64,000 nucleotides of DNA from Rhodothermales bacterium. Lineage in GTDB: Bacteria > Bacteroidota > Rhodothermia > Rhodothermales > UBA10348. The stretch is from assembly GCA_040221055.1 (NCBI GenBank), contig JAVJVN010000014.1, positions 425,001 to 489,000 of the forward strand, read 5' to 3'. The notes under the pieces are model-generated. The model was not told the origin of the DNA and did not search any database. It saw nothing but the letters and a program-made list of their open reading frames with translations. Below are positions 10,622 through 20,168 of this stretch, in pieces; the first letter of the stretch is position 1, and every line of letters begins with the position of its first letter. Position numbers and translations under genes: made by a program.

Positions 10622-10960
10622 ATGGCAGCCAATCGTACACGTTCATTGTCCCCGCCCGCCCGGTTGGCCTTGGGCATCCTGGGTAAGCTCATCCGGACCG
10701 GTCGAATCGAAAGAAAAATGACGACCGCCGAGCTGGCCGAACGTGCCGGTATTTCGCGGGACATGTTATACCGCGTGGAAAAAGGCGATCCCCGCTGCGA
10801 AATCGGTGTCGTCTTCGAACTCGCCACCATCGTGGGTGTCACGCTGTTCGAACCGGAGGTCTCTGCGCTGCGGAGGCTGGAACACAGGGTTGCGGACCGA
10901 TTGACGTTGCTGCCGAAGTCCGTCCGGAATCCAGAGGAAGAGGTTTACGATGACTTCTGA
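10622..10960 (+). CDS. HipB-like XRE-family regulator (antitoxin)
   Basis: 112 residues with one XRE-type helix-turn-helix (MTTAELAERAGISRDMLYRVEKGDP, about residues 33-57), followed by a helix that in HipB homologues helps dimerisation. The gene overlaps the hipA-like gene by 11 bp, so the two are translationally coupled. It probably represses its own operon through the upstream inverted repeats and restrains the kinase. No other domain is visible. Confidence 0.87.
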   Translation: MAANRTRSLSPPARLALGILGKLIRTGRIERKMTTAELAERAGISRDMLYRVEKGDPRCEIGVVFELATIVGVTLFEPEVSALRRLEHRVADRLTLLPKSVRNPEEEVYDDF

Positions 10961-12191
10961 TCGGGAAGCATTCGTTTGGATCTGGCTGCCAGGTGCCGTG
11001 CAGCCCGTCGTAGCCGGTCGGATTTCCCACACGACGGATGGTCTGCAATTCAACTATGGACAGAGTTATCTCGAACGGGCCGAGGCTATTCCGCTCTCGT
11101 CACGGGAACTGCCATTGCGAGAAGGACTGCAGCCGCTCCTGCCCGGACTCCTCATGCCTGGATGCATCCGTGATGCCTCCCCCGATGCATGGGGCCGACG
11201 TGTCCTTCTGAACAAATTGGCTGGCAAGCGAGGACCCGATGCCGATCCCGTGTCCGTGGGAGAGTTGACCTATCTGTTGGAATCCGGATCGGACCGGATT
11301 GGGGCACTCGACTTCCAACGATCCGCTACCGAGTACACCCCCCGTTCCGGGGATACCGCCAAGTTGGATGATCTGATGGAGGCGGCCGATCGCATTGAGC
11401 GCGGCTTACCACTTCCGGAGGGACTGGATACGGCTTTGTTGCACGGTTCGTCCATTGGCGGTGCTCGGCCCAAGTCTACGCTGATGGATGGTGAGACGCC
11501 CTTCATTGCCAAATTTTCGTCGAGCTCGGACCACTTCCCGGTCGTCAAGGCCGAGTTCGTCGCCATGCGTCTGGCCGCCCGTGCCGGGCTGGATGTGGCT
11601 GATGTCCGACTGATGCAGTCAGCGGGTCGGGACGTCCTGTTGGTCAAGCGATTCGACCGTGGGCCTGTCCCGGGTGGATACCATCGTCGGCTCATGCAGT
11701 CGGCTCTGACCCTGCTGGAGTTGGATGAGATGATGGCTCGGTATGCCAGCTATGAACGATTCGCCGACGTCATCCGCCACTCGTTTGCCAATCCGCGGGC
11801 CACCTTGCATGAGTTGTTCGCCCGTCTGGTATTCAACATCCTGTGTGGAAATACGGATGATCATGCGCGCAATCATGCTGCGTTCTGGGATGGTCAAACA
11901 TTGCGTCTGACACCGGCCTACGACATCTGTCCACAGCTCCGAAGTGGAGGAGAGGCAACCCAGGCCATGCTCATCCACGGAGAAAATCGATTCAGCAGAC
12001 TGGATGTCTGTCTGGATGCGGCCCGGGTATTCCATTTGTCACACGCTGAAGCACGTGGAATAGTAGAGCGCCAGTTGGAAGCCATTCGGGCGCATTGGAG
12101 TGAGGTGGCGGACGAGGCCTGCCTGGCCACGGCCGAGCGCGACTTTCTCTGGGGAAGGCAATTCCTGAATCCGTACGCGTTCGGAAAATGA
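10950..12191 (+). CDS. HipA-family Ser/Thr kinase toxin
   Basis: 413 residues. The HipA N-terminal lobe is seen in LPGLLMPGCIRDASPDAWGRRVL and GSDRIGALDF. The kinase core has the Gly-rich phosphorylation loop SSIGGARPKS, the lysine strand FIAKFSS, a second basic strand DVLLVKRFDRG, the catalytic loop NTDDHARNH (residues 301-309) and the metal-binding LTPAYDICP. All are intact. E. coli HipA phosphorylates glutamyl-tRNA synthetase and causes persistence; the target here is unknown. It pairs with the overlapping HTH gene. Confidence 0.9.
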   Translation: MTSDREAFVWIWLPGAVQPVVAGRISHTTDGLQFNYGQSYLERAEAIPLSSRELPLREGLQPLLPGLLMPGCIRDASPDAWGRRVLLNKLAGKRGPDADPVSVGELTYLLESGSDRIGALDFQRSATEYTPRSGDTAKLDDLMEAADRIERGLPLPEGLDTALLHGSSIGGARPKSTLMDGETPFIAKFSSSSDHFPVVKAEFVAMRLAARAGLDVADVRLMQSAGRDVLLVKRFDRGPVPGGYHRRLMQSALTLLELDEMMARYASYERFADVIRHSFANPRATLHELFARLVFNILCGNTDDHARNHAAFWDGQTLRLTPAYDICPQLRSGGEATQAMLIHGENRFSRLDVCLDAARVFHLSHAEARGIVERQLEAIRAHWSEVADEACLATAERDFLWGRQFLNPYAFGK

Positions 12192-12283: not shown

Positions 12284-13156
12284 ATGAAATCGTTCAAGAT
12301 CACGTTTTTTACCCTGTTCCTGGCCGCCTTTGGGCTCGTCGGGTGCGATACCGGCAGTGCACTGACCGACTCCATGTCGGAAGGCGCCGGTGACACGCCG
12401 GTTTCGCTTTCCTTCTCCATGGTGGACAACAGCACGCCGGCTGCCTTCGGAGCGGTCGCGCTCTCCAACGATGCCAATGTCCTCTCGAAGTCGGGAGCCA
12501 TTGAGCTGACCCGCGTGCGCATGTTGCTGCGTACCATCCAGTTCCACTCCAGGGAAGACGACGATCCGTCGGACTTCAGGACGGCTCCGGTCGTGGTGGA
12601 ACTGAACCTGGACGGCTTGCCGACCGAAGTGGAAGTGGCCGACATTCCTGCCGGCACGTATCACAAGGTCTCCTTCCGCATCCACAAGCCGGAAGACGAC
12701 GAAGAGCTTTCGGAGGACATGGCCGATTTCCGCACCGGCGAGAGTGGCCGTGAGCGCTATTCGATGATCATTGAAGGCACGCACGGTGGCACACCGTTCG
12801 TGTACCGCTCAAGCAAGTCCATGCAGCAGAAGATTGATCTGAACCCGGATCTCGTCGTGAACGACTCGCTGGCCGGTCCGCTGAATGTTGCCATGCAGGT
12901 GGATGTCGACGAATGGTTCTTCGATCGTGATGGAAACGCACTCGACCCCGCGGATACGTCCGAGCGGAATGCGAATGCCATTGATCGATCCATCCGTGAG
13001 TCCTTCCGCATGTTCCCCGACCATGACCATGATCGCCACCCGGATCGGGACGAAGACGACGACGATGACGACGACGACGACGATGACGACGACGACGACG
13101 ATGACGACGACGACGATGACGACGACGACGATGACGACGAAGAAGACAACGGATGA
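12284..13156 (+). CDS. Lipoprotein with 28-residue poly-aspartate tail
   Basis: 290 residues from ATG 12284, chosen because it starts the lipoprotein signal (FLAAFGLVGC, lipobox Cys about residue 20). The body has short beta strands (ELTRVRMLLRTIQFH, VEVADIPAGTYHKVSFRI) that recall the DUF4382 fold, though I am not certain. The C-terminus changes to DHDHDRHPDRDE and then 28 consecutive Asp codons (13055-13138) and ends EEDNG. The His/Asp tail is an obvious candidate cation or metal binder. It lies just upstream of, and on the same strand as, the sigma-receptor frame, which itself carries an acidic insert, so the two products may act together at the outer membrane. Confidence 0.85.
   Translation: MKSFKITFFTLFLAAFGLVGCDTGSALTDSMSEGAGDTPVSLSFSMVDNSTPAAFGAVALSNDANVLSKSGAIELTRVRMLLRTIQFHSREDDDPSDFRTAPVVVELNLDGLPTEVEVADIPAGTYHKVSFRIHKPEDDEELSEDMADFRTGESGRERYSMIIEGTHGGTPFVYRSSKSMQQKIDLNPDLVVNDSLAGPLNVAMQVDVDEWFFDRDGNALDPADTSERNANAIDRSIRESFRMFPDHDHDRHPDRDEDDDDDDDDDDDDDDDDDDDDDDDDDDDDEEDNG
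13055..13138 (+). repeat. GAC/GAT trinucleotide tract coding for 28 Asp
   Basis: A pure run of 28 Asp codons with GAC dominant and GAT interspersed. Trinucleotide tracts can change length by slippage without shifting the frame, so the tail length may vary between strains. It is also a likely place for assembly error. Confidence 0.95.
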
Positions 13157-13230
13157 TGAACCGGGCGAATGGATCTGCCCTTCTTGCCATGAGTAGTGAC
13201 CGTATTCGCTACTCGGCCAAGCAATCCACA

Positions 13231-13260
13231 AGCGGCAGGGTGCACGGGCATCCTGCCGCT
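13231..13260 (+). promoter_or_regulatory. Strong hairpin just upstream of the sigma-receptor start
   Basis: AGCGGCAGG (13231-13239) pairs perfectly with CCTGCCGCT (13252-13260), with possible extension inside. No T-run follows, and the structure ends 10 bp before the ATG at 13271, where no clear Shine-Dalgarno is seen. It may end or weaken transcription from the lipoprotein gene or control translation of the next gene. Confidence 0.5.
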
Positions 13261-13270
13261 TCGCTCGTAA

Positions 13271-16200
13271 ATGACCCCCAGCGCATTCCAGAATTTCTTC
13301 CGGGAAATGTATCCGCAGGCGGTGCGCTTCGCACAGAGCCGACTGGGGGACCGCCAGCAGGCCGAGGACATCGTGCAGGACGTGTTCGTCCGGATGTGGG
13401 AAAATCGTCGGCGAATTGCGACCGACAGATCGCCGAAGGCCTACCTGTTCAAACTGGTCGCGAACGCGATCATTGATCATTACCGGCACGAGAAAGTGAA
13501 ACAGCGTCACGCCGAACATATGCTTGCAGGAGGGCCCGCCCTGACGCCGGCCCACGATCCCACGCAGGAGGAGGATATCCTGCGTGCCATCGATGACCTG
13601 CCCGAGAAAGAAAGCACCGTGTTCCGCCTGAACCGGTTTGCCGGAATGACCTATGCCGAGACGGCCCGCTACCTTGGCGTATCCCAGAAAACCGTGGAAA
13701 AGCACATGTCACGCGCCCTGGCCCGTCTGGGCACGTCGCTCCGGGACTTCCTGGTGGTGCTCATCGCGCTCCTGACGCTGGCCGTGGCCGGCGCGGCACA
13801 CGGTCAGGATCGGACGGCGGAGTTCGCCGCATCCAGCGTGGATATCCAGCTTGAAGGCATGTCGCTTCGCGATGCCTTGAGCGCGGTGGCTGCCCGGACG
13901 GGTGCGGGTCTTGTTTTTGATGATGCGATGGTGGAATCCAGGATGGTCGGCCCGCACTGTTCGACCTGTCCGCTCAAGGAATTGATGCGTGATGTGCTCG
14001 CGCCGCATGGTCTCGCCTTCGAACTCATGGGTGGCCCGGTCATCGTCGTCGTGCGTGGACGGGGCCTTCAACTCACAGGCCGTGTCGTGGATGCCGAAAC
14101 CGGGGAGTCGCTGCCGCTCGCCCAGGTCTGGACGGGATCCACGGGAGGGGTCGCCGACGAGGACGGGTGGTTCTCGCTCACGGTTCCGGCGGATGGAGCG
14201 ACACATTTGACGGTCAGTTACATGGGATACGAGCACCGGATGGTCCGGGTGGAGCCGGGAAACCTGGGCACGATCGCGCTCCGTCCACGCACCATCGTGG
14301 TGGGTGAGGTGACGGTGATTGCGGAGCCCGTCATTCCCGTCTCCGGGGACGGCTCCGGGGCGCGACTCATGCGCGGCGGAACCATGGACCGCATTCCGAC
14401 CATTGGCGGCGACGATCCGCTGCTGGCCATGCAGATGCTCCCGGGCATGGACAACACGGGCGAACGGGCCGGTGAAATGTTCATCCGCGGGGCCACGCCG
14501 CGCACGAACCTCGTGACGTGGGATGGGATACCGGTATTCAGTGCCGATCATTTTTTCGGAATGATTTCCACGTTCTCACCGCAGGCCGTGGGCGAGGTCA
14601 AGACGTATCCCCGGGGCGTCCCGGCGCATCTGGGGGGACGCGCGGGCACGGTGGTCGAACTGGCCTCTCCGTCCGGGTTGGGGCATCCCCAACTCCTGGC
14701 GCATTCGTCCGTGCTCGTGTCCGGAGCCAGCGTGCGCATTCCGTTGGGTCCGCGCATGGGGGGATGGATTTCGGCACGCCGGTCCACGCCCGCCATTGAA
14801 CAGCAGACCGCCTACAGCTCCTTCTTCGACAAGGCCATCGGCGAGGAATTCGAGGCGAATCGGCCGGGCTTCACGTTCAGCGATGTGAGCGCCCGGTTGG
14901 ACGTGCTGGCTGCCGCGCGGCATCATGTCTCGTTCAGTCTCCATACGAGTGACGACGGTTTGGACCGCAATACGAGTGACGTCTTCCGGCAGTTGGAACT
15001 GGTGAACGAGCAGACCGAGGAAGAGGAGGAGGAAAACGAGAATCGCGGGCGTGGACAGGGCCGCGGGCGCGGCGGCGATGACGATGATGATGATGACGGA
15101 GAAGAGGATTCGGACGCGGACGACGATGAAGGCGATGCGGAATTCGTGGAAACGGTGGTTACCGAGCGCGAGCGCACGAACAACGATTGGAGTCTGACCG
15201 GTGCGGCGCTCAACTGGACGGCGAATTGGGCGGCCGGCGCGCCCATGCATGTGCAGGTGACCCGGTCCCGGTCCCGGAGCAGTTATGCCGCTGACCTGTC
15301 TGAACTGGCCGCCGATACACTGGCGTTCTCGGCCGTGGAAGACCGCCGGCACTCCATTGAGCAACAGGCCATTCGCGTGCGGCAGGAACTGCCGTCGGCA
15401 CTGGGCAGCACGACGGTCGGGGCATTTTTTGAGGGGTCCCGTTCCCGGTTCGCTGCCTCCACGGTGTTCAACACGGTGAATGCGTTCGATTCGACGTCGG
15501 TCCGGGACATGACGCTGGCCGGCGGGCATGTGGCGCAGGAAATGCGTCATGGACCGGTACGACTGCAGGCCGGCATCCGGCTCACGCGTCTTTCGACAAA
15601 TGGCGCCTGGTACACCGCTCCGCGCGTGGCCGCGGACGTTGCGTTGACGGGCCGCCTGTCGGCGCAGGTATTCTGGGGCCAGTATCATCAGTACATGCTC
15701 CGGTCCCTCGACTCCGATATCCTGGTGGAGCGCCGGGACAGCTGGGCGTTGGTGGACGCCGGACAGGATCCGGCCCGCTCGCGTCAGGCGGGGGCCTCGC
15801 TGGAAATGAGCGGTCGCGCGTGGAGCCTTTCGGCCGACGTCTGGCGCCGGACCAGTCTTGGTGTTCCTGTGCTCCCGGAAGCCACACCCCGGGCGGATGT
15901 CCGTCCGTTCAACGGGGATGAAACCCATACGCTGGGTATGGACGTGGGCGGCCAGGTGCGAATTTCGGGCGTCGTCGCGTTGGTTTCCTACACGTACACG
16001 GAGAGCGAGGCCCGCAGTCCGGCGTTTCCCGGGTTGGGTTGGTTCCGATCGCTGTCCGAGCGGCCCCATGCCGTGAAGGGCGTGGTATCGGCGCCCGTGG
16101 GGCCGGTCACGGTCGGCGTGTCGTACTCGCTGGCATCGGGTCGGCCCGTTGGCGTACTGCTCGATCCACGGCGATTCGTTTCTGCGGACGGGTCCCAACT

Positions 16201-16456
16201 CCTGGGCAGTGCCGCGGCATCCCTGGACGGCGAGCAGCTGCCGCCGTACCGCCGACTGGATGTCGACGTGGAGTGGACGGGTCGGATAGGCGGCCTGAAC
16301 ATGGCTGCCGCCGTGTCCGCCGTGAATGTCCTGGACCGTCAGAATGTGCGCTACCGGCGCATTGTCACTGAAGGTACATCGGTGCTCCTGCGCGATGTGA
16401 CCATGCTTGGCTTTACGCCCACGGCCTCACTCCGGATTGGACTCAACCGGCCATGA
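13271..16456 (+). CDS. ECF sigma factor fused in frame to a TonB-dependent receptor with STN domain
   Basis: 1061 codons without a stop. Residues 1-160 are a complete FecI-like sigma factor: region 2 (residues 9-48, with EDIVQDVFVRMWENRR) and region 4 (about 106-158, MTYAETARYLGVSQKTVEKH). Where such sigma factors normally stop, the frame continues through LRDFLVVLIALLTLAVAGAAHG, a hydrophobic h-region with a plausible cleavage at 176-179. Then come an STN domain (about 187-262), a carboxypeptidase-regulatory-like domain (263-350), a TonB plug (GEMFIRGATPRTNLVTWDGIPV) and a beta-barrel. An acidic, Gly/Arg-rich insert lies at about 583-625. FecR overlaps the end by 4 bp (ATGA). An internal ATG at 13706 (Met146) could start a secreted receptor without the sigma part. 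Either a true fusion or a nested gene pair is possible; a sequencing error is less likely because both parts end and begin neatly in one frame. Confidence 0.88.
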   Translation: MTPSAFQNFFREMYPQAVRFAQSRLGDRQQAEDIVQDVFVRMWENRRRIATDRSPKAYLFKLVANAIIDHYRHEKVKQRHAEHMLAGGPALTPAHDPTQEEDILRAIDDLPEKESTVFRLNRFAGMTYAETARYLGVSQKTVEKHMSRALARLGTSLRDFLVVLIALLTLAVAGAAHGQDRTAEFAASSVDIQLEGMSLRDALSAVAARTGAGLVFDDAMVESRMVGPHCSTCPLKELMRDVLAPHGLAFELMGGPVIVVVRGRGLQLTGRVVDAETGESLPLAQVWTGSTGGVADEDGWFSLTVPADGATHLTVSYMGYEHRMVRVEPGNLGTIALRPRTIVVGEVTVIAEPVIPVSGDGSGARLMRGGTMDRIPTIGGDDPLLAMQMLPGMDNTGERAGEMFIRGATPRTNLVTWDGIPVFSADHFFGMISTFSPQAVGEVKTYPRGVPAHLGGRAGTVVELASPSGLGHPQLLAHSSVLVSGASVRIPLGPRMGGWISARRSTPAIEQQTAYSSFFDKAIGEEFEANRPGFTFSDVSARLDVLAAARHHVSFSLHTSDDGLDRNTSDVFRQLELVNEQTEEEEEENENRGRGQGRGRGGDDDDDDDGEEDSDADDDEGDAEFVETVVTERERTNNDWSLTGAALNWTANWAAGAPMHVQVTRSRSRSSYAADLSELAADTLAFSAVEDRRHSIEQQAIRVRQELPSALGSTTVGAFFEGSRSRFAASTVFNTVNAFDSTSVRDMTLAGGHVAQEMRHGPVRLQAGIRLTRLSTNGAWYTAPRVAADVALTGRLSAQVFWGQYHQYMLRSLDSDILVERRDSWALVDAGQDPARSRQAGASLEMSGRAWSLSADVWRRTSLGVPVLPEATPRADVRPFNGDETHTLGMDVGGQVRISGVVALVSYTYTESEARSPAFPGLGWFRSLSERPHAVKGVVSAPVGPVTVGVSYSLASGRPVGVLLDPRRFVSADGSQLLGSAAASLDGEQLPPYRRLDVDVEWTGRIGGLNMAAAVSAVNVLDRQNVRYRRIVTEGTSVLLRDVTMLGFTPTASLRIGLNRP
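13693..13708 (+). promoter_or_regulatory. Candidate internal ribosome site and start codon for the receptor
   Basis: Within the sigma region 4 coding part, GTGGAAAAG precedes an in-frame ATG at 13706-13708 by a few bases. Starting here gives an n-region with three Arg (MSRALARLGTSLRD), a 15-residue hydrophobic core and a GAAHGQ cleavage context, in other words an ordinary signal peptide. The last helix of the sigma factor would then double as the n-region of the receptor signal. Confidence 0.45.
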
Positions 16457-17469
16457 ACATGAACGAATACAACCCTACAGAGCAGGAATTGCTGGCGCGA
16501 CTCTTCGATGGAAGCCTGTCGGACGCCGACCGGAATGCCCTCCGGACGCGCATGCGCCTGGACGCCGACCTGGCTTCGACCGTCCGGACCGTCGAGCGCC
16601 TGGCCGCCATCATCCCGCCGGTGGATACGGGTTTGGTTCAGCAGGCCGTCACGGAGGACGATACCCGAGCCGCCTGGAAACGGGTCGAGGCGCGGATTGG
16701 ACGTGGACTGGATATTGGGCTTGGGCACCCGGTTGCCACCCTGTACCGGCTTCGGTGGGTGGCGGCGGCCGCAGCCGTCCTGGTCGTGGCGGTCGCGTTG
16801 TCGGTCGTGCTCCGGCCTGCATCCACGCCGGACTGGGAAACCGTACTGGCTGCCCGGGGCGAGATCCGGACCGTCGTGCTGGATGATGGGTCCACCGTGA
16901 CGCTCAACGCCGACAGTCGATTGGAACACGCGGTGTCGGAAGGAGCAGATCCGCGGGTCGTGCGCCTGGACGGGGAAGCGCGTTTCGAGGTGGCATCCGA
17001 CGGTCGGGCCTTCGTGGTGGAGACGACCGAGGCACGCGTTCGCGTCCTGGGCACGCAGTTTACGGTGCGAGCACGGGGCGAGGCGACCGCTGTGGCCGTA
17101 CACGAGGGGCGTGTGGCGGTCGAAGCGGGATCCGATGCCCGGGAATTGACCCGGGATGAGGCTGTTGAGGTCCGCGCTGGCGCTCCGGTACGCGTATTGC
17201 CTCCGGACGTGGCCCGCTCGGCCGATGATTGGACCCGCGGCATGTTGACGTTCCAACGCGTCCCCCTCACCCGGGCACTGGTGGACGTGGAACGCCGATT
17301 CGACGTGGAGATTGCCCTCACGGGGTCATGGACCGGGTCTGAATCTGTTTCAGGATCCTTCCCCGATCAGGACGTCCGGGAGGTCCTGGACAGCCTGTGC
17401 CGCATTTACGCGTGTGAGGTCCGGGAGCGTTCAGCCGCCGCCGGGCCCGGGTACGACCTGGCTCGGTAA
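16453..17469 (+). CDS. FecR-family transmembrane sigma regulator with DUF4974-like C-terminus
   Basis: 338 residues, overlapping the receptor stop by 4 bp (ATG 16453; an ATG at 16459 is also possible). The cytoplasmic N-terminus (ELLARLFDGSLSDADRNAL) is the anti-sigma part. One membrane helix lies at about 100-121 (WVAAAAAVLVVAVALSVVL). The periplasmic FecR domain follows (RTVVLDDGSTVTLNADSRLEH, VVRLDGEARFEVA, VRVLGTQFTVRA), and the end (LTFQRVPLTRALVDVERRF, VSGSFPDQDVREVLDSLC) is the DUF4974 / STN-like domain. In cell-surface signalling this protein receives the signal from the receptor STN domain and controls the sigma factor. Here both partners are encoded in the single upstream frame. Confidence 0.93.
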   Translation: MNMNEYNPTEQELLARLFDGSLSDADRNALRTRMRLDADLASTVRTVERLAAIIPPVDTGLVQQAVTEDDTRAAWKRVEARIGRGLDIGLGHPVATLYRLRWVAAAAAVLVVAVALSVVLRPASTPDWETVLAARGEIRTVVLDDGSTVTLNADSRLEHAVSEGADPRVVRLDGEARFEVASDGRAFVVETTEARVRVLGTQFTVRARGEATAVAVHEGRVAVEAGSDARELTRDEAVEVRAGAPVRVLPPDVARSADDWTRGMLTFQRVPLTRALVDVERRFDVEIALTGSWTGSESVSGSFPDQDVREVLDSLCRIYACEVRERSAAAGPGYDLAR

Positions 17470-18442: not shown

Positions 18443-18496
18443 CATCAAAAGTGATGTATTAAGCCTTTGAATCAGGTTAATCCATCAATAATGATG
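18443..18496 (+). promoter_or_regulatory. Two identical operators of the second HipBA module
   Basis: CATCA-N4-TGATG occurs twice, at 18443-18456 with AAAG in the middle and at 18483-18496 with ATAA. The centres are exactly 40 bp apart, close to four helical turns, and the second site overlaps the start codons at 18491/18494. This fits a dimeric HTH repressor that binds both sites and blocks its own promoter. Confidence 0.65.
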
Positions 18497-18853
18497 AATA
18501 ATAAATTTGTGGGTTCGGATGCCGATGTGCTGGCGGAGCTCGGCCGTCGGGTGGAACGCTTGCGACTGGATCGTAACTGGACTCAGGAACAGCTGGCCCG
18601 GGAGGCCGGCGTATCGCGCCCGACCGTGGAGCGCATGGAGGCGGGGGCGTCGGGCAGCATGACGTCGTTCGTCCGGGTGCTCCGGGCGCTCGACCGGTTG
18701 GAGGCGCTGGACGACGTGGTGCCTGTGCCGGACGTGAGGCCCATGGAGGTACTCCAGGAAGGGGCCCCGAAGCGACGAAAGCGCGCACGGCCACCGGGAC
18801 CGGCGGATGAAGCGTCGTCAGCGTCCGCGTGGACCTGGGGCGATGAGGAATGA
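18491..18853 (+). CDS. HipB-like XRE-family regulator (antitoxin)
   Basis: 120 residues from ATG 18491 (ATG 18494 equally possible; a TTG at 18467 is less likely because it lies between the operators). One XRE helix-turn-helix is visible (NWTQEQLAREAGVSRPTVERMEAG, about residues 30-53), then SMTSFVRVLRALDRLEALDDVVP and a basic, Pro-rich C-terminus (KRRKRARPPGP) ending WTWGDEE. The pairing with the HipA-like gene 16 bp downstream and the twin operators support an antitoxin role. Confidence 0.88.
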   Translation: MMNNKFVGSDADVLAELGRRVERLRLDRNWTQEQLAREAGVSRPTVERMEAGASGSMTSFVRVLRALDRLEALDDVVPVPDVRPMEVLQEGAPKRRKRARPPGPADEASSASAWTWGDEE

Positions 18854-18869
18854 CCATGCGTGAGGTTTG

Positions 18870-20168
18870 ATGATGGGTACCCTTGCCGAAGTGCGATTGT
18901 GGGGCACCACGATCGGCGCCGTGTTCATGGAGGATGTAGAACGCGTTGCGTCGTTCGAGTATGCCTCCGGTTTCCTGCGAAGCGGGATCGGGTTGTCGCC
19001 CGTGCACATGCCGCTCCGGGAAGGCGTATTCCGTTTCCCGGAACTGGACAGCGGGGCGTTCCACGGATTGCCCGGAATGCTGGCCGACTCACTGCCGGAC
19101 CGGTACGGGCACGCGCTCATCAACGCCTGGCTGGCTCAACAGGGGAGGCCCCCCGAATCGTTCAACGCCGTCGAACGCTTGTGTTATGTAGGCCGGCGCG
19201 GGATGGGTGCACTGGAATATGAGCCGTCCGTGGGGCCTGACGCGTCCGAATCGCACGTCATCCAGGTAGGCGCGCTGGTCGAATTGGCCGGGCGCGTTAT
19301 CCGGGAACGGGGGCGTCTCGACACCCGATTGGATGTCGGAGAGGATGCCATTCGGGACATCCTTCGCGTAGGAACCTCCGCCGGTGGGGCGCGGGCCAAG
19401 GCACTGATTGCCTGGAATCCGGAGACGGATGACGTTCGATCGGGCCAGGCGCATCCCGGGGACGGTTTCACCCACTGGATACTGAAGTTTGACGGCGTGA
19501 CGGGGGATGCACGGATTGAGGTGGGGCAAAGCGCCGGATACGGAGCGATAGAGTATGCGTACTCGGTCATGGCCCGACGCGCCGGTGTGGCCATGCCGGA
19601 GACGCGTCTGTTCGAAGAAGGCGGTCGGCGCCATTTTATGGCACGCCGCTTCGACCGCACGGACGACGGCGACAAACTCCACATGCAATCACTTGGCGCA
19701 CTCCTGCATTTCGATTACAATCTGGCGGGCGCGCACGGGTATGAGCAGGCCCTGCAACTCATCCGCCGATTGGGAATGGGTATGGATGCGGTGGAGGAGC
19801 AGTTCAGGCGCATGGTGTTCAATATCGTTACGCGCAACCAGGATGACCACGTCAAGAATATTGCCTTTCTGATGGACCGGAAGGGGAAATGGTCGCTGTC
19901 GCCTGCCTTCGATATCACGTGGAGCTATAACCCGGAGGGCGATTGGACGAGCCGCCACCAGATGTCCGTGAACGGCAAGCGGGACGACTTCCTGACAGCC
20001 GATCTGGAAGCCGTCGCCGAGGGAGCCGCCATGAAGCGGGGACGGTGGCGCGAAATCCTGCATGAGGTCGTGGAAGCGACAACCACATGGAACGACATTG
20101 CCTGTGATGCCGGTATTCCCGAAAGCGACGCAGCCGCCATTGCGCGGACGTTCCGGACAGCGTGGTAA
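18870..20168 (+). CDS. HipA-family Ser/Thr kinase toxin
   Basis: 432 residues from ATG 18870 (ATG 18873 possible). N-lobe: SGIGLSPVHMPLREG and LPGMLADSLPDRYGHALI. Core: phosphate loop GTSAGGARAKALIAW, lysine strand HWILKFDG, FMARRFDR, catalytic loop NQDDHVKN (residues 323-330) and metal-binding LSPAFDITWSYNP. It looks complete. It differs from the HipA at 10950 both in length and in sequence, so the two are separate lineages rather than a recent duplication. It ends before a perfect terminator-like hairpin. Confidence 0.9.
   Translation: MMGTLAEVRLWGTTIGAVFMEDVERVASFEYASGFLRSGIGLSPVHMPLREGVFRFPELDSGAFHGLPGMLADSLPDRYGHALINAWLAQQGRPPESFNAVERLCYVGRRGMGALEYEPSVGPDASESHVIQVGALVELAGRVIRERGRLDTRLDVGEDAIRDILRVGTSAGGARAKALIAWNPETDDVRSGQAHPGDGFTHWILKFDGVTGDARIEVGQSAGYGAIEYAYSVMARRAGVAMPETRLFEEGGRRHFMARRFDRTDDGDKLHMQSLGALLHFDYNLAGAHGYEQALQLIRRLGMGMDAVEEQFRRMVFNIVTRNQDDHVKNIAFLMDRKGKWSLSPAFDITWSYNPEGDWTSRHQMSVNGKRDDFLTADLEAVAEGAAMKRGRWREILHEVVEATTTWNDIACDAGIPESDAAAIARTFRTAW

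Follow-up and report, generated by a model that had tools for sequence, protein, structure and literature searches.

Cell-surface signalling (CSS) of the FecI-FecR-FecA type is classically carried out by three proteins: an extracytoplasmic function (ECF) sigma factor, the regulator FecR and a TonB-dependent transducer. Some of these parts are known to occur joined. IutY of Pseudomonas putida is a sigma/anti-sigma hybrid, and its sigma is described as sitting on a transmembrane segment from which RseP frees it, with Prc needed only if the periplasmic part exceeds 50 residues (PMC5411451). RseP is also described as removing remnant signal peptides and cutting FecR (PMC8144685). A review of non-canonical ECF sigma factors names, in the passages covered here, anti-sigma parts among the fusion partners, along with other extensions, and no receptor (PMC8999054). 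Here we analyse a gene that joins an ECF sigma factor to a TonB-dependent receptor in a single open frame. It lies in a stretch of 64,000 nucleotides from a Rhodothermales bacterium (contig JAVJVN010000014.1, positions 425,001 to 489,000), called the window below. An earlier sequence-only reading of the window had known of no such fusion, and none was found in the open-access full-text literature either, judged by title and start of abstract among the matches listed; mention in the main ECF classification paper is possible. We regard the fusion as a variant of CSS.

The fused gene occupies positions 13271-16456 of the + strand, on which FecR, the upstream lipoprotein gene and the RNA hairpin described below also lie, and runs from ATG to TGA (1061 amino acids). 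No stop interrupts its 1061 codons, as the sequence-only reading had stated, and a TAA at 13268-13270, directly before the ATG, sets the earliest start. At the N-terminus stands a complete FecI/TIGR02985-type ECF sigma factor, with region 2 at residues 10-75 (13298-13495; PF04542 Sigma70_r2, 1.7e-15) and region 4 at residues 101-153 (13571-13729; PF08281 Sigma70_r4_2, 4.6e-16). The match to NCBIfam TIGR02985 over residues 5-156 is above cut-off (137.8 bits, cut-off 126.4), which bears out the earlier claim of an intact sigma at this end. Residues 160-174 (13748-13792) form a hydrophobic segment, FLVVLIALLTLAVAG, with a net charge of +2 over the 15 residues that precede it, and residues 176-179 (13796-13807) form the signal-peptidase-type motif A-x-[AG]-Q, here AHGQ.

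The remainder of the frame resembles a receptor. An STN signalling domain is assigned to residues 186-262 approximately (13826-14056). STN is absent from the Pfam matches of the whole window protein at E 0.1; when the STN stretch alone was searched at a lax limit (E up to 10), all four members of the genus matched (best 4.7e-6), the window's stretch scoring 16.5 bits (E 0.0075), below the Pfam cut-off of 28.4 bits. The best match of this stretch among solved structures is the signalling domain of HasR (E 0.0028). Next come a CarboxypepD_reg-like domain (Pfam CarbopepD_reg_2, residues 268-349, 14072-14317) and a TonB receptor plug (Pfam, residues 385-455, 14423-14635; 24.0 bits, cut-off 23.9). 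The beta-barrel region (14681-16453), which includes an acidic low-complexity stretch, has no Pfam barrel match in the window protein; it is assigned from the alignment to the receptor of G008, a related genome described below, and from barrel-family matches of the receptors of two split relatives. The layout of signal-like segment, STN, plug and barrel proposed earlier was thus recovered and its plug confirmed, barely over the cut-off, with the STN domain below the Pfam cut-off and the barrel seen only through relatives. A FecR-type anti-sigma regulator follows in a frame of its own (16453-17469; PF04773 3.8e-19, PF16344 1.6e-7, both above cut-off), sharing 4 bases with the end (stop codon) of the fused gene, an overlap already noted from the sequence. 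The cluster thus holds a full set of CSS parts: a FecI/TIGR02985-kind sigma, a FecR-type anti-sigma and a receptor with plug and STN, the window STN below the Pfam cut-off.

Each of the four genomes of the genus in the collection, the window's own included, carries the same fusion in frame and without stops, in open frames of 1061, 1137, 1157 and 1130 codons whose products share 47.7-76.3% identity over the whole protein. Because four of four carry it, the fusion is not a chance event or an assembly error. A search of relatives for the same order and junction had been advised, and its outcome means that the loss of a stop, raised as a ground for doubt, fails as an explanation inside the genus. 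Separate genes, the other such ground, are likewise absent from the genus and do occur elsewhere in the order, in G008, G055 and G057. The ratio of nonsynonymous to synonymous substitution rates (dN/dS) of the sigma half is 0.145, 0.126 and 0.099 in the three comparisons among the window, G002 and G003; values involving the fourth genome, G001, are near synonymous saturation and are given no weight. Ratios this low mark purifying selection on the sigma half, which therefore seems to be in use although its coding frame continues into the receptor. Both halves look as if they are kept by selection. It could be argued that only the receptor works, the sigma half being a decaying relic or the fusion an assembly error or a lost stop, and 15 residues present near the N-terminus of the other three copies are indeed missing from the window copy. 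This is very improbable given that all four genomes are fused, that dN/dS of the sigma half is low and that the TIGR02985 match is still above its cut-off.

The junction has the same layout in all four proteins: the basic end of sigma region 4, about 15 hydrophobic residues, then A-x-[AG]-Q at the same place. A Sec signal peptide cut by signal peptidase I has a positive flank, a hydrophobic core and small residues at -3 and -1. By inspection against this rule, all four junctions have the layout, and cleavage is predicted on that basis. Net charge ahead of the hydrophobic stretch is +2, +2, +2 and +4 in the four fused proteins. The motif reads AHGQ in the window and G002, ADGQ in G003 and ARAQ in G001, and the complete proteins of the window, G002, G003 and G001 contain A-x-[AG]-Q only 1, 2, 1 and 2 times, respectively. 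Over residues 158-185 the window and G001 share only 20% identity (20 aligned residues), with the motif still present.

Outside the genus, the split state is found in three members of the order: G008, which shares the family, and G055 and G057, which belong to another one. In these, sigma, receptor and FecR are separate genes arranged in the same order. If the receptor gene is taken from its first possible start and the stop codon of the sigma gene is included, the two genes share 7 bases in G008 and 13 bases in G055, and are 1 base apart in G057. The split sigmas end in hydrophobic tails (LAHLLTLLILILLGMRW, LVQAILLLLLCNG and LRTLILILFC in G008, G055 and G057), whose hydropathy over 12 residues is 3.03, 2.67 and 1.73, weak in one of the three, and each split receptor has a signal-like start of its own. 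At E 1e-60 the receptor of G008 is the sole match outside the genus in the 27 genomes of the family (31% identity over residues 168-1058). In a sigma tree of 95 different sequences, built after removal of nine identical sequences and of four loci that repeat others, the four fused sigmas form a supported group (99/94), and the four fused and three split sigmas group together weakly (91/64). The split products, a receptor and a sigma that ends in a short hydrophobic tail, resemble those that a signal peptidase cut of the fusion would be expected to yield. In the direction that we infer, a coupled pair probably came first, and the tailed sigma then lost its stop and its tail became the signal peptide of the receptor, which would be a simple route of origin. 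Since these three unfused relatives have sigmas with hydrophobic tails, a membrane-touching sigma may pre-date the fusion.

On balance we lean towards reading the gene as a precursor for FecI/FecR/FecA-like CSS, in which sigma and receptor are made as one chain and processed in the following way. What is observed here is the fusion together with its conservation and constraint, the cleavage-type motif kept in all four proteins and the split relatives; the steps themselves are proposed. Sigma and receptor would be translated as one chain, the N-terminal sigma domain folding in the cytoplasm. The hydrophobic stretch that follows region 4 would act as an internal cleavable signal peptide (N-in) and engage Sec. 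Signal peptidase I would cut A-x-[AG]-Q before the Q, and the STN-plug-barrel receptor would move to the outer membrane. The cut would leave the sigma domain in the inner membrane on a short C-terminal hydrophobic tail, much like the form encoded by the split relatives. FecR, made separately from the overlapping next gene, would serve as the anti-sigma, holding or licensing the sigma and presumably hearing the receptor through its STN domain. An RseP-like protease may then cut the remnant tail and free the sigma, or the sigma may work at the membrane. As a result, each receptor made would come with one sigma, and both would be handled at the inner membrane, where the single chain probably must be cut apart. 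Candidates for the enzymes are present in the genome: two PF02163 matches for a site-2 protease, and two PF10502 pieces in one 366-codon frame for signal peptidase I. The sequence-only reading had the sigma held at the inner membrane until signal peptidase or another protease cuts it, which would tie its release to receptor export. The signal-like junction is borne out; cutting by signal peptidase as the releasing step does not hold, because that cut would leave the sigma on its C-terminal tail, and the sigma would have to be cut a second time or to act at the membrane.

How common such tails are bears on whether the sigma must be freed at all. Among 57 loci with a TIGR02985 sigma, the 29 of the order include one with a hydrophobic tail and the 28 of the phylum sample (L099-L126) include 20, at a threshold of 1.4 that was chosen after the values had been seen; none of these loci has a value between 1.01 and 1.46. 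The 57 derive from two lists of 30, less L047, which was already in the set, and with L071 and L072, present in both lists, counted once with the order; L047 has no tail, and the full figures would be 1/30 and 20/30. Loci selected by the fusion profile have tails in 3 of 26 cases in the order, 3 of 16 in the class and 5 of 5 in the phylum. FecR lies downstream of the sigma in 55 of the 57 loci (27/29 and 28/28), and a receptor match is found in 38 (20 of the order, 18 of the phylum sample), beyond FecR in 37 of them; in the exception, L105, a weak receptor match begins where the FecR match does. The sampled loci are short and receptors can be missed, and the FecR and receptor profiles were partly built from loci that repeat L099, L100, L104, L117 and L120, so that these five match partly by construction. 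The survey suggests that many CSS sigmas of the phylum touch the membrane by themselves; no literature on hydrophobic sigma tails was found in an open-access library of partial coverage. It is conceivable that the sigma is never freed, and that the tail-anchored remnant or the uncut chain transcribes at the membrane, or that FecR merely hands the sigma to RNA polymerase. The 20 tailed sigmas of the phylum sample, in which all 28 loci have FecR downstream, suggest that tails are compatible with function, and E. coli FecI is described as associated with the inner membrane (PMC12037070). An uncut chain, however, could hardly stay in the inner membrane and at the same time place a barrel in the outer membrane, and both the cleavage-type motif kept in all four proteins and the RseP-like candidates in the genome speak for cutting. 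We regard a permanently tethered sigma as quite unlikely.

Several observations weigh against the processed precursor. The hydrophobic stretch, at about 15 residues, suits a signal peptide and is short for a stable anchor. On a membrane-insertion scale, the summed energy of the G003 stretch is near zero; on the same scale only the G008 tail of the three split tails looks a good membrane segment, those of G055 and G057 being poor ones (+1.3 and +3.9). The tail is not generally needed for a FecR-linked sigma, because most TIGR02985 sigmas sampled in the order have none. Two of the three close comparisons give the junction (residues 158-185) a higher dN/dS than any other region (0.44 and 0.54), which fits the loose sequence demands on a signal peptide and is no mark of strong constraint. 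A structure model of the first 370 residues is poor outside the sigma part (mean predicted local distance difference test score, pLDDT, 46.7; two sequences), and the sigma part alone is modelled, at moderate confidence. Lastly, the in-frame ATG at 13706-13708 (Met146), which the sequence-only reading had not considered, is invariant in the genus and could by itself start a normal receptor precursor, in which case the full-length product need not be the source of the receptor.

A start at Met146, within sigma region 4, would make the frame encode two products, a receptor with a 33-residue signal peptide of its own and a full-length chain that supplies the sigma, so that the fusion would be mainly a compact gene overlap. 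The residue is the same in four of four proteins, and the sequence from there on, MSRALARLGTSLRDFLVVLIALLTLAVAGAAHG/Q, is laid out like a signal peptide; the conservation of the Met is, however, explained without a role as a start, because the same Met is found in the three split sigmas, within sigma region 4. The use of identical codons at conserved residues is somewhat raised in 28-codon windows starting at residues 158-170 (top 3-5%), and is surpassed by those starting at residues 55-68; reduced synonymous change at the junction was accordingly not used as evidence. Shine-Dalgarno pairing ahead of Met146 is unremarkable (-3.3, 0.1, -3.3 and -6.4 in the window, G002, G003 and G001, where the window background averages -2.9), a comparison of little power because the four annotated sigma starts score worse (+1.9). 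Even with this start, the sigma would still be made only attached to a receptor, barring a frameshift. We consider the two-product arrangement fairly unlikely, yet it is a live alternative and the main one to the processed precursor. A programmed frameshift would itself yield a free sigma, and in the three close species the +1 frame has a stop 25-26 codons past the VEK motif. In G001 that stop comes after only 4 codons, and none of the four genes has a slippery heptamer in the right register near the junction; of the explanations discussed, this is the one to which we give the least credence.

The fusion is rare, as far as the sampled genomes and the matches listed reach. In searches with a profile (A1) of the stretch from sigma through regulatory domain, the matches listed include fused frames from four of 114 order genomes, four of 244 class genomes and three of 394 phylum genomes, all of them from this genus; G002 is not among the matches listed in the phylum sample. 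These samples are nested and overlapping, and at most 4 to 29 candidates per genome were scored, depending on the search. TIGR02985 searches of 113 order and 296 phylum genomes gave no other sigma frame of receptor length among the matches listed. The longest other sigma frame among them, of 607 codons in G096, was rejected as a fusion: the additional length precedes the first possible start, and the sigma itself abuts FecR at its end. Four of the rows with a match past a stop (G055:C419, G016:C472, G053:C30 and G062:C5) were rejected too, the sigma frame ending as a separate gene in each.

Directly upstream of the fusion lies a gene for an acidic putative lipoprotein with a long Asp-rich tail (12284-13156), which adjoins the fusion in all four genus loci (5245-6174 in L130, 5991-7043 in L131 and 9114-10058 in L132) and is not present before the split sigma of G008 (locus L127). 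Two of the four putative lipoproteins have weak matches, below cut-off, to Pfam MbnP. Within the receptor part, an acidic low-complexity stretch (window about 15030-15200, rich in Glu/Asp and Arg-Gly) is variable yet present in all four genus members; this stretch and the acidic lipoprotein together point, tentatively, to a cation or metal as the substrate. Between the lipoprotein gene and the fusion, an RNA hairpin of 14 bp is predicted at 13230-13261, its 3' end 9 bases ahead of the ATG. Each of the four genus loci has a predicted hairpin ahead of the start (z -2.2 to -5.1 relative to simple base shuffles); in G002 and G003 the sequence of the stem has changed and its pairing is kept, and in G001 a different stem lies near the start. 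Rfam gave no family at 13230-13261 and a single chance-level match (E 0.88) at 13055-13114. Frames that by eye look HipA-type flank the cluster at 10950-12191 and 18867-20168, the second preceded by a small helix-turn-helix-like frame (18467-18853).

If the processed precursor is the right reading, export of the receptor may itself make the sigma, each signal peptidase cut shipping one receptor and creating one tethered sigma that a site-2 protease then frees; we put this forward as a possible and rather doubtful extension. Were it true, the cell would count exported receptors and couple transcription to receptor biogenesis, extending the logic of a polyprotein from cytoplasm to outer membrane. 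A cytoplasmic transcription factor and an outer membrane protein in one chain would mean that a single product serves two compartments far apart and that signal peptidase acts as a regulatory step, and the system would be a natural test of how far proteolysis of signal remnants carries information.

Compared with the FecI-FecR-FecA systems, the locus encodes together the same parts, an ECF sigma, a FecR with FecR_C and an STN and plug receptor of the TonB-dependent transducer kind, and differs in that sigma and receptor are one frame and in the order sigma-receptor-FecR. The classical system has three separate frames, whereas here, at the level of genes, a single sigma/receptor frame is present in each of the four genomes. 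Another ECF sigma merged with a product of its operon has been reported from annotation, that of Methylocystis MbnA, in which the partner is a small precursor peptide and, in the part of the report available, no receptor or membrane segment is described (PMC3621798). In IutY, as here, the sigma domain is followed by a membrane segment (residues 160-174, directly after the sigma domain, in the window protein) and by a part outside the cytoplasm that belongs to the same signalling pathway, and release by RseP would be the natural model (PMC5411451; PMC9249621); in contrast to IutY, the extracytoplasmic part is here the receptor, and the anti-sigma is in its own frame. The sigma-receptor-FecR clusters of G008, G055 and G057 share with the fusion the gene order, the domain types, the tight coupling and the hydrophobic sigma tail, and differ from it in having two separate frames, the receptor beginning with a signal-like start.

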